NCBI RefSeq assembly: GCF_004765795.1
Contig: NZ_SBIV01000008.1
Location: 62,001-126,000 of the forward strand
Direction: 5' to 3'
DNA from: Halorussus marinus
Lineage (GTDB): Archaea > Halobacteriota > Halobacteria > Halobacteriales > Haladaptataceae
DNA length: 64,000 nt
Position 1 is the first letter of the stretch; each line of letters begins with the position of its first letter. Position numbers and translations under genes: made by a program. Shown in pieces: positions 5,879 through 59,676 of the stretch. The notes under the pieces are model-generated. The model saw only the letters and a list, made by a program, of their open reading frames with translations. It made no database searches and had not been told where the DNA came from.

Positions 5879-6676
5879 ATGCGAATCGAGCAGCTAGGCG
5901 AGGGCACGCCGGAGGTGGCGGTCGTCGCCGCGATCCACGGCGACGAGCCCTGCGGCGTCCACGCCGTCGAGCGCCTGTTGGCCGACGACCCCGAGACCGA
6001 GCGCCCCGTGAAGTTCATCGTGGCGAACGAACTCGCACTCGAACGAGAGGTCCGGTACGTCGACGAGGACCTCAACCGCGCGTTCCCCGGCGACCCGGAC
6101 GCAGACACCCACGAAGGCCGGCTCGCGACCGACCTCGCCCGCGAGGTCCGCGACTGCACTACGCTCGCGCTCCACTCCACCCAGTCGTACGGCGAGCCGT
6201 TCGCGGTGACCGACGAGGTCGGGGCGGTCGCCCGAACGGTCTGTCCCCACCTGCCGATCTCGGAGCTCGTCGACACCCAGAACGATACCGACGGCCGGCT
6301 CATCGAGTACCCACACACCGTCGAGGTCGAGTGCGGCTATCAGGGCTCGACCGAGGCCGCCGAGAACGCGGTCGAGCTGACCCGCGGGTTCCTGCGGGCG
6401 ACCGGCGTCCTCCCGGCGGGCGAGTCGCTCCCGGACGAGGGGGCCGACCCCGTCGAGGTGTTCCGACTCGACAGCCGGATTTCCAAGTCACCGGCCACGG
6501 AGTACGAGGTGTTCGCCGAGAACTTCGAGCGCGTCGAGGGCGGCGAGGCGTTCGCGGCCGCCGACGACCGCCGGCTCGTCGCCGACGAGCCGTTCTACCC
6601 CATCCTGCTGTCGGCGTACGGCTACGAGGACATCTTCGGCTACCGGAGCGACCGGATCGGCGTTCTGGAGGGGTAG
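5879..6676 (+). CDS. succinylglutamate desuccinylase/aspartoacylase family hydrolase
   Basis: The 265-residue protein from the ATG at 5879 has the M14-like zinc carboxypeptidase fold signature. AAIHGDEPCG (about residues 16-25) gives His and Glu zinc ligands, DLNRAFPG (about 63-70) gives the substrate Arg/Asn pair, and LALHSTQSYG (about 96-105) gives the third ligand. A later VEVECGYQGS supplies the catalytic Glu. Members deacylate N-acyl amino acids (N-acetylaspartate, N-succinylglutamate). It might release an amino acid from N-acetylglutamate in this genome, but that is inference. It is convergent with psmA and probably leaderless. Confidence 0.82.
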   Translation: MRIEQLGEGTPEVAVVAAIHGDEPCGVHAVERLLADDPETERPVKFIVANELALEREVRYVDEDLNRAFPGDPDADTHEGRLATDLAREVRDCTTLALHSTQSYGEPFAVTDEVGAVARTVCPHLPISELVDTQNDTDGRLIEYPHTVEVECGYQGSTEAAENAVELTRGFLRATGVLPAGESLPDEGADPVEVFRLDSRISKSPATEYEVFAENFERVEGGEAFAAADDRRLVADEPFYPILLSAYGYEDIFGYRSDRIGVLEG

Positions 6677-56677: not shown

Positions 56678-58006
56678 ATGACCGAGACCCCATCCACCGA
56701 CCGCAACCGACCGAAGCCGCCCCAAGACGACTCGGACGAGACGCGACGAGACCCGCCCGACGACGCCTCGCTCGAAGACCGGGTCGAGGCCGCGCTCCGG
56801 GCGGTCAGGGACCCGGACGCCGACGTGACCGTCTTCGAAGCTGGACTGATCGAGTCGATCGACGTCGACGGGCGGGCGGCGACCGTCGAGGCCGCGGTCA
56901 CCGAGTTCGACGAGTCGAGCGCGACCGCCGCGATGGAGGCGATGCTCCGGGCGGTCAGGGAGGTCCCCGGCGTCGAGAGCGCTCACGTCGAGCCGGTCGC
57001 GCCGACCGGCGACGACCGGACCGGCGGGGTCGCGGAGTTCGACACGGTGATCGCGGTCGCGAGCGCGAAGGGCGGGGTCGGTAAGTCGACCGTCTCGACC
57101 GGCCTCGCGTGCGCGCTCGCGGCCGACCGGCCGACCGGACTGTTCGACGCCGACATCCACGGGCCGAACGTGCCGTCGCTGCTCGAGGTCTCGGGCCCCG
57201 TCCGATCCGATCAGGCGGGCCGCCCGCTCCCGGTGGAGGCGTCGGGGCCGGACGCCGACCTCGACGTGATGAGCGTCGGCCTGATGGAGTCGGGCGCGCC
57301 GCTGGCGTGGCGGGGCGCGATGGCTCACGACGCGCTGACCGAACTGTTCGAGGACACCGCGTGGCGTGCCGACGACACGCTCGTCCTCGACCTGCCGCCG
57401 GGGACCGGCGACGTGGTGCTCACCACCCTGCAGGAGGTGCCGGTCGACGGGGTCGTGGTCGTGACGACTACCTTCCCCGCGAGCCTCGACGACACCGCCC
57501 GGAGCGTCGAACTGTTCCGCGACAACGACGTGCCGGTGCTCGGGGCGGTCGTCAACATGGGCGGGTTCACCTGTCCGACGTGCGGTGACGACCACGACCT
57601 CTTCCCCGGAAGCTCGCCTGCAGAGACGCTGTCTGCGCCCGTCCTCGCCGAGCTTCCGTTCGCGACCGAGTTCCAGGAGACGCCGGTGCCCGGCGAGCCG
57701 ATCGCCGAGTTGGCCGGGGTCGCCGAGTCGGTCGCCGACGCCGCCGCGACCGCGTGGGACCCAGATCCGCCGGACGGCGCCCTCGACATCCGCGGGGACT
57801 CTCCGGAGCGGCGCCGCGAGCGCGTCGCCGAGCGCTTCGAGGCGCTCGACAGCGGCGAGACGTTCGCGCTCGTCAGCGACCGCGATCCCGCGCCGGTCAG
57901 AGAGTATCTCGCCGAGGTGACCGACAGCCGACCCTCCGATATCGAGGGGTTCGAGGTCGAACGCCGGACCCCCGACGACTGGGTGCTCACCGCCACCCGC
58001 CCGTGA
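56678..58006 (+). CDS. DUF59-Mrp/NBP35-DUF2249 fusion ATPase (Fe-S carrier) of the nar operon
   Basis: The 442-residue protein has an N-terminal MIP18/DUF59-like domain (about 31-106). A deviant Walker A ASAKGGVGKST (128-138) opens an Mrp/ApbC P-loop domain with FDADIHGPNVPSLL, LDLPPGTGDVVLT and the bridging FTCPTC (C299, C302) that holds a [4Fe-4S] cluster at the dimer interface. A C-terminal DUF2249 domain (about 366-440, LDIRGDSPERRRERVAERFEALDSGE and DDWVLTATRP) completes it. It probably delivers Fe-S clusters to NarH/NarG. DUF2249 is otherwise found with NO/nitrite-response proteins. It is the last gene of the operon. Confidence 0.85.
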   Translation: MTETPSTDRNRPKPPQDDSDETRRDPPDDASLEDRVEAALRAVRDPDADVTVFEAGLIESIDVDGRAATVEAAVTEFDESSATAAMEAMLRAVREVPGVESAHVEPVAPTGDDRTGGVAEFDTVIAVASAKGGVGKSTVSTGLACALAADRPTGLFDADIHGPNVPSLLEVSGPVRSDQAGRPLPVEASGPDADLDVMSVGLMESGAPLAWRGAMAHDALTELFEDTAWRADDTLVLDLPPGTGDVVLTTLQEVPVDGVVVVTTTFPASLDDTARSVELFRDNDVPVLGAVVNMGGFTCPTCGDDHDLFPGSSPAETLSAPVLAELPFATEFQETPVPGEPIAELAGVAESVADAAATAWDPDPPDGALDIRGDSPERRRERVAERFEALDSGETFALVSDRDPAPVREYLAEVTDSRPSDIEGFEVERRTPDDWVLTATRP

Positions 58007-58017
58007 CCGAGCCGGGG

Positions 58018-59676
58018 TTACCGACCCCCCCGGTCCGCGAACCGCGGCCGCCGACTCACACGCCGGGGCGTCGACAGTCTGGATCGGGGCTTGTCGCCGA
58101 CGGCCGCCGCCACCGCCTCGCGGAGCTGTGAGACCGTCAGTTCGCGCTCGGTCGCCTCGCGTCCGACGGTCACGTCGAGGGCGTCGGCGTCGCGCTCGCG
58201 GTCGCCGACGACCGCGTAGTACGGGACCCAGTCGGCCGCCGCGTCCGCGAGTCGGTCGCCGACGGTCGCCGTTCGGTCGTCGATATCGACCCGGACGCCG
58301 CCGGGGTCGAGGGCGGTCGCGACCGCCTCGCATCGGGCGAGGTGTCGGTCGGCGACCGGGACGAGCCGGACCTGCGTCGGCGCGAGCCACGTCGGGATCC
58401 CCGGCGGGTCCCGGCGGGCCGCGCTCGCGGCCAGCGCGTCGACCGCGCGGTCGAGCCGTCCGACCGGCGCACACCGCACGCGTCTGACCGGGCCGTCCGA
58501 TTCCGGGCCATCGCGGTCGGGTGCGGCGCGGTCGAGCCGAACCCCGGCGACCGCGAGCGCACGGTCGTCGGCGTCTATCGTGAGCAGATCGACTGCGAGC
58601 GACCGCGAGCCGCGCTTCTTCTCGGAGACTTCGACGGGGACCGGCGCGTCGAACGCCCCGGCCAGTTCGGCGAGCCACGTCTCGTTGTCGGCGTAGAACG
58701 CCCGCGTCGCCCGAACCATCGGCCGGACGTCGAGGCCCAGCGCCTCGCTCGCCCGGCTCGCCACCTCGACGCCGGCTCGGAACGCCTCGCGGGCGCGCTC
58801 GGGGTCGCGCGTCGCGGCGCGGAGTTCGGGCGTCTCGCGGCCGGGATCGAAGCGCCACGCCGGCCGATCGGTCGACTCGACGCCCGGATCGGCGACCGAC
58901 GGGGCGTCCCCGCCGGTTCGAACGCCGTCGACGCCGGCGGTCTCGATCGGCGCCCCATCGCGTTCGGCGGCGAGGTCCGCGGCGTACGCCGCCAGCACGT
59001 CCCGGACCACCGCGCCGCGGGGGAGCCACCGGAGCCCGCCGTCGTCGTCGGGCGAGTCGGCGAGTCCGGACTCGCGCAGGCGCTCGACCGCGAGCCCGTC
59101 GCCGCGGTCGCCCGCGAACGCTCCCGTCGGGTCGGCATCGAGGACGGCGCGGGCGTCGTCGAGCGCCGCGTCGAGGTCTTCGGGGTGGGTGAGCTCGCCG
59201 TCGGCTCCGAGCAGTCGGCGCTCGGTCGGCGGCGCCTCGCGGGCGTCTGCGGGGTCGATCCGGACCGATCGGCGCGCGAACGGGTGGCCCTTCGCCGAGA
59301 GGTCGAGCGCGGCGTGCCACCCGACCGGCGCGCGAACCACCTCGATCTCGGGAGCGATCGCGGCGTCGAGCCCCCGGAGGACGGTCCGGACGCGCTCGGC
59401 GTCGGCGGGGTCGTCGACGAGGTGATCAGCCGGCGAGAGGACGGCGCCGTCGGCGTTCAGGCGGTCGATCGCGGCCCGAAGCTCGTCGGCCGCGTCGGCG
59501 ACCACCGCGTCGAGGGCGGTCGCGTCGGCCGACTCGACGCCGACGAACGCGGCCACGCAGTCGGTGAGCTCGCCCGCGGACGGAGCGCCGTCGGGCTCGG
59601 CGGCGTCGACCCCCGGCTCGACCGCCGTCGTCGCCTCGAACGCGACGCGGTCGGCGTGGACGAACAGCACTCGCAT
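58018..59676 (-). CDS. archaeal ThrRS-like protein with editing and anticodon-binding domains but degenerate catalytic core
   Basis: From the ATG at 59676 (an in-frame ATG at 59682 is an alternative) the protein has 552 residues. Residues 1-140 match the archaeal ThrRS D-tyrosyl-deacylase-like editing domain (MRVLFVHADRVAFEA and APVGWHAALDLSAKGHPF). Residues 180-240 keep the pre-catalytic segment (GLRWLPRGAVVRDVLAAYAADLAAERDGAPIETA). The class II motif 2 region (FRYE...FTMPD in active enzymes) is missing. About 428-530 is the anticodon-binding domain (PTWLAPTQVRLVPVADRH). It probably hydrolyses Ser-tRNA(Thr) in trans. It is convergent with the nar operon. Confidence 0.8.
   Translation of the reverse strand: MRVLFVHADRVAFEATTAVEPGVDAAEPDGAPSAGELTDCVAAFVGVESADATALDAVVADAADELRAAIDRLNADGAVLSPADHLVDDPADAERVRTVLRGLDAAIAPEIEVVRAPVGWHAALDLSAKGHPFARRSVRIDPADAREAPPTERRLLGADGELTHPEDLDAALDDARAVLDADPTGAFAGDRGDGLAVERLRESGLADSPDDDGGLRWLPRGAVVRDVLAAYAADLAAERDGAPIETAGVDGVRTGGDAPSVADPGVESTDRPAWRFDPGRETPELRAATRDPERAREAFRAGVEVASRASEALGLDVRPMVRATRAFYADNETWLAELAGAFDAPVPVEVSEKKRGSRSLAVDLLTIDADDRALAVAGVRLDRAAPDRDGPESDGPVRRVRCAPVGRLDRAVDALAASAARRDPPGIPTWLAPTQVRLVPVADRHLARCEAVATALDPGGVRVDIDDRTATVGDRLADAAADWVPYYAVVGDRERDADALDVTVGREATERELTVSQLREAVAAAVGDKPRSRLSTPRRVSRRPRFADRGGR

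Follow-up and report, generated by a model that had tools for sequence, protein, structure and literature searches.

A displaced archaeal threonyl-tRNA synthetase gene in Halorussus marinus, likely maintained as a non-catalytic module

The gene at positions 58,018–59,676 on the reverse strand of the window (i.e., the whole 64,000-nucleotide stretch of Halorussus marinus DNA analysed here) is likely a displaced homeoallele of archaeal ThrRS (ThrRS-R) that has lost catalysis and is maintained as a folded, non-catalytic module. In the series of events that we propose, a bacterial-type ThrRS that carries an editing domain of its own would, judging by its sequence, have taken over both charging and editing; the archaeal enzyme would then have lost aminoacylation, through deletion of motif 2 and alteration of motif 3, and very probably also the editing of Ser-tRNA(Thr) together with the equivalent of Lys121; and what remained would be a predicted editing-domain (ED) fold, a motif 1 dimer surface and an anticodon-binding domain. 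Archaeal ThrRSs belong to two anciently separate types, and a 2011 study of these homeoalleles found no genome with both; its reviewer raised the question why genomes in an intermediate state are so rare (PMC3191353). Halorussus, from the gene sequences compared here, appears to be that graded intermediate state of ThrRS replacement.

The window gene encodes a 552-residue protein whose starting methionine is shared across its aligned homologues (MRLLxxHAD). Since long spurious ORFs are common in DNA of ~70% GC, ORF length by itself was left out as evidence; that the gene did not arise by chance follows from its homologues in 18/18 Halorussus genomes and from several of these having common neighbours. 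Pfam places an archaeal editing domain at the N end (tRNA-Thr_ED, PF08915; residues 1–138, E 3e-22; 59,263–59,676, reverse strand) and an anticodon-binding domain near the C end (HGTP_anticodon, PF03129; residues 435–522, E 4e-12; 58,111–58,374, reverse strand), the latter being the best-conserved part of the relics, as we call these genes; it gives no match to tRNA-synt_2b in the window protein, in which no synthetase core was recognised. Sequence matches in the PDB follow the same layout, the N end matching archaeal EDs and the part beyond it the C-terminal halves of ThrRSs. Among NCBIfam models, archaeal ThrRS comes closest (PRK03991, E 7e-87); the protein is orthologous to it, aligning full length with the intact Halorussus ThrRS-R copies at 35–40%, from the ED and the motif 1 region to the anticodon domain and the C-terminal tail, although its 292 bits fall short of that model's cut-off of 484.

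What separates the window protein from intact haloarchaeal ThrRS is the state of its active sites. Class II motif 1, a dimer-interface helix and strand, is partly retained (YGGMPVETP to RDGAPIETA; residues 215–246, 58,939–59,034, reverse strand); motif 2 (SFRREQRGE...GLKRQRAFTMPDMH) is deleted, the deletion site lying at residues ~247–283 (58,828–58,938, reverse strand), partly a low-confidence linker in the structural model; and motif 3 is changed from SPSGGIER to APVGRLDR. On this alignment, with motif 2 deleted and motif 3 altered, aminoacylation is judged to be lost. KGHP is found in the ED, and His83 of the Pyrococcus abyssi domain is retained, but Tyr120, Lys121 and Glu134 are replaced by His121, Ala122 and Arg135, respectively, the codon of Ala122 (59,311–59,313, reverse strand) marking the position of Lys121. 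In an AlphaFold2 model (alignment of 29 sequences, mean pLDDT 81, pTM 0.67), the ED matches that of P. abyssi (3pd3, a DTD-like fold; TMt 0.90, rmsd 2.3), and the remainder resembles the catalytic-plus-anticodon domains of ThrRS with TMt up to 0.68; the model as a whole is steered by intact relatives in its alignment and so counts for little in the middle part. The original prediction, made from the DNA alone, had described an archaeal ED with KGHP and an anticodon domain without motif 2, and had derived the protein from archaeal ThrRS; the Pfam matches and alignment bear out the first claim, and the full-length alignment, tree position and common neighbours the second.

A second ThrRS resides in the same 3.76-Mb genome. 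Among five class II genes recovered by a core-domain search is a bacterial-type ThrRS (P0002, 642 residues, contig C4) that aligns over its whole length with the E. coli enzyme (1QF6). Its motif 2, motif 3 and Zn ligands are intact and both editing motifs, HxxxH (HSAAH) and CxxxH (CKGPH), are present, and it is the sole apparently competent ThrRS found in the genome. The expectation that another ThrRS charges tRNA-Thr thus agrees with the sequence of P0002. A search for a second ThrRS without editing had also been proposed; the second ThrRS was found, but its own editing site is complete. The same holds more widely: bacterial-type ThrRSs of Halorussus retain the editing, Zn and motif 2/3 signatures in all copies examined, and each of the 15 relic genomes checked has a bacterial-type ThrRS and both editing motifs, the relic never being a genome's sole ThrRS. 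In Halomicrococcus gelatinilyticus (G142), one of two such copies matched the search pattern for the first motif (HxxxH). Two bacterial-type genes each were likewise seen in four genomes of the same family (G017, G082, G102 and G147). The notion that the relic compensates for an editing-defective bacterial ThrRS was rejected because the partner's editing sites are complete in relic genomes.

Of 195 genomes sampled from the order, 44 contain a PF08915 gene and 151 lack one; a single-sequence scan of the genome contigs gave no match, and relatives were found with an alignment of relics as the query. By their aligned motifs, the 44 archaeal-type genes sort into three groups. Intact genes carry PYAH/WYK/E in the ED together with SFRREQRGE, GLKRQRAFTMPDMH and SPSGGIER. 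Transitional copies, from Halorussus, include two with FRRERRD (G090 and G136), two near-intact synthetases in which the Lys121 equivalent is already Thr and motif 2 is still largely there (G058 and G118), and one incomplete gene (G171). In the relics, motif 2 is gone or unrecognisable, motif 3 is altered in most, and the Lys121 equivalent is A, T, L, S, V or I. All three states are found within Halorussus, where archaeal and bacterial-type ThrRS occur together in 18/18 genomes, the archaeal copies being variously intact, transitional and doubly dead. Besides the window gene, relics are carried by Halorussus halobius HD8-83 (G156) and Halorussus litoreus HD8-51 (G050) and, outside the genus, by Halostella pelagica (G035), Halomicrococcus gelatinilyticus, Haloglomus halophilum, Halorubellus salinus and three Halobacteriales MAGs. 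At the other end of the series, 12 genomes of the sample have an intact ThrRS-R and no bacterial type, in agreement with the ThrRS-R reported for Halorhabdus utahensis (PMC3191353), and at least 11 (eight from Halorussus, three from a different genus) have a bacterial ThrRS alongside a sequence-intact ThrRS-R. In three genomes (G022, G044 and G116), the intact ThrRS-R adjoins the bacterial-type gene in divergent orientation.

The main alternative, which we hold to be unlikely, is that the relics are ordinary pseudogenes, replaced by the bacterial enzyme and slowly fading under residual selection. Several features point that way: GC at codon position 2 has risen from ~0.41 to 0.56, a sign of relaxed constraint; the motifs were lost in several separate lineages; the gene is missing from those 151 genomes; and one MAG relic (G086) has an in-frame TAA (L037, ~6588–6590, reverse strand) where G078 has Arg, with coding similarity resuming after it, which would fit either genuine decay or a mistake in the assembly. 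Against this stand the substitution rates. Under a pairwise GY94/F3x4 codon model written for this work, relic–relic dN/dS lies between 0.08 and 0.36, with likelihood ratios (LRT) against w = 1 of 15–203, dS being saturated for several pairs. Specifically, w was 0.255 for G023–G054 (LRT 60), 0.106 for both G006–G045 (190) and G062–G070 (203), 0.080 and 0.156 for G078–G086 (139 and 80), and 0.25–0.36 for a MAG trio (15–95), in which the weakest pair, L140–L143 (LRT 15), is little above the neutral range. With the same estimator, pairs of intact genes gave 0.02–0.09 and neutral simulations gave 0.55–1.01, with no LRT above 13.6; the estimator thus errs somewhat on the low side, yet not as far down as the relic values. 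On the branch of the window gene, w = 1 was rejected for the ED and anticodon domain together (2dlnL 70), the ED alone (19) and the anticodon domain alone (55), on a branch that may reach back to a time when the protein was still catalytic and whose dS is large and poorly bounded, making the absolute w there rough.

The reading frames tell against simple decay as well. When an intact copy was left to decay neutrally in simulation, ~2–8 stops arose overall; at 50–65% identity the average was ~4–8, and at 50% identity it was 5–8, with 0/60 runs per setting stop-free; neither the window gene nor any other relic except G086 contains an in-frame stop, and the 6–21 indels per relic relative to an intact copy are all in frame. 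The gene is moreover retained in all 18 Halorussus genomes. Judged by dN/dS values far under 1 and by their open frames, the relics still look maintained by selection, and, G086 excepted, they do not evolve as neutral sequence and are not plain pseudogenes.

A more improbable reading holds that the relics descend from an old, separate paralogue that lost catalysis once and was then spread or differentially lost. They do cluster in a protein tree of all ThrRS-R sequences, but on very long branches that the program flagged as unsafe; in trees built with one relic at a time, every relic nests within Halorussus, beside transitional copies. Nor do the species relationships favour a single loss: in an EF2 tree, the relic genomes G050 and G156 (together with support 100), G066, G000 (98, with intact-copy genomes) and G130 (weakly placed) lie apart among intact-copy genomes, suggesting, as far as these trees go, three or four separate losses within Halorussus. 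A combined EF2 and bacterial-ThrRS nucleotide tree was poorly resolved. Finally, in neither the 195-genome sample nor the 18 Halorussus genomes was a relic found together with an intact ThrRS-R, and some neighbours are common to relics and intact orthologues, which also counts against a paralogue.

That the relic clears Ser-tRNA(Thr) in trans for the other ThrRS, as the original prediction supposed, we consider very improbable. The comparison that inspires it is with crenarchaeal ThrRS-ed (ThrRS-2, PRK14938; e.g., of Aeropyrum pernix), which likewise combines an ED and an anticodon domain with no working synthetic core while a second ThrRS charges; the window protein matches this model (E 2e-36) and its predicted ED fold is intact, but the score of 126 is far under the cut-off of 362. 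Furthermore, ThrRS-ed serves an editing-less ThrRS whereas the relic's partner, by its motifs, edits in cis, and the relic, separately derived from haloarchaeal ThrRS, retains a motif 1 remnant and lacks the key lysine. That residue, numbered 121 in P. abyssi, 116 in Aeropyrum and 122 in M. jannaschii, serves to position the catalytic water, and its replacement by Met severely compromised editing in three archaeal EDs while a substrate analogue was still bound tightly (PMC4491819). Its equivalent is gone in 15/15 relics scored and retained in fully intact enzymes, and the His83 equivalent is also missing in several relics. By extension from the published mutants (Met, not Ala, Thr or Leu), the window protein has very probably lost the editing of Ser-tRNA(Thr). 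It is true that the chemistry of these EDs is largely RNA-based, or substrate-assisted, and that the P. abyssi domain tolerates loss of Tyr120 and Glu134 (PMC4491819); editing that survives the loss of side chains was nonetheless rejected as the main reading, the Lys121 mutants having lost activity in three archaeal EDs. Selection for trans-editing should, moreover, have let Lys121 outlast motif 2, and the opposite pattern is seen. What had been named beforehand as refuting the trans-editing claim, a full-length, editing-competent ThrRS elsewhere in the genome together with mutated editing residues here, is in substance what we observe, with a bacterial enzyme in place of the archaeal one.

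If the relics are, as we favour, folded non-catalytic modules, their surviving surfaces, including an ED that would bind substrate without hydrolysing it, might suit a tRNA(Thr)- or RNA-binding role. We tentatively propose that the relic is a putative tRNA(Thr)- or RNA-binding pseudo-synthetase (a regulator, chaperone or sensor), a role favoured by the tight binding of the analogue without hydrolysis in Lys121 mutants and by the anticodon-domain positions that most relics keep. Counting against it, the position aligned with what we take to be an anticodon contact like R609 of E. coli is Gly in the window gene, although Arg in most relics. Similarly tentative is the broader possibility that haloarchaea have repeatedly taken a displaced archaeal ThrRS and, under selection, made of it a tRNA(Thr)- or RNA-binding protein that has neither catalytic activity left, which may then constitute a new pseudo-synthetase family. 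Precedents for the class II synthetase fold being retained for tRNA or ligand sensing after charging was lost are HisZ and the HisRS-like domain of GCN2; the relic differs in that there is no sign of a target enzyme or kinase, its own function being a proposal. Cyanobacterial genomes reportedly carry two ThrRS-like genes of one family, whereas the Halorussus pair joins two anciently separate families, one member of which is catalytically dead.

These comparisons would, if the proposed history is true, capture every stage from two competent ThrRS types per cell to a dedicated non-enzyme, and they make it possible to test directly, among close Halorussus relatives, how fast and in what order one synthetase replaces another. 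Should the relics prove functional, they would further exemplify a housekeeping enzyme turning into a non-enzyme. The labels "editing domain-containing protein" and "threonine--tRNA ligase" would be misleading for relic genes, and no paper describing the window relic was found in a literature search that covered papers available outside subscription.

Two observations concern the surroundings and the insertions of these genes. No conserved operon partner hinting at function was found in the genomic neighbourhoods of the relic and the orthologues compared; in the window, an Mrp/NBP35-type ATPase gene (56,678–58,006, forward strand) lies tail to tail with the relic and was not found beside those orthologues. 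Two related MAG relics share a near-identical in-frame stretch of 35–40 residues (GGCNS..HQSLLSAETDPFRLDSQFE..TYSHQY) at different sites, the N-terminal part in L140 and the linker in L170, resembling the insertion of a short mobile or repeated DNA element in frame.
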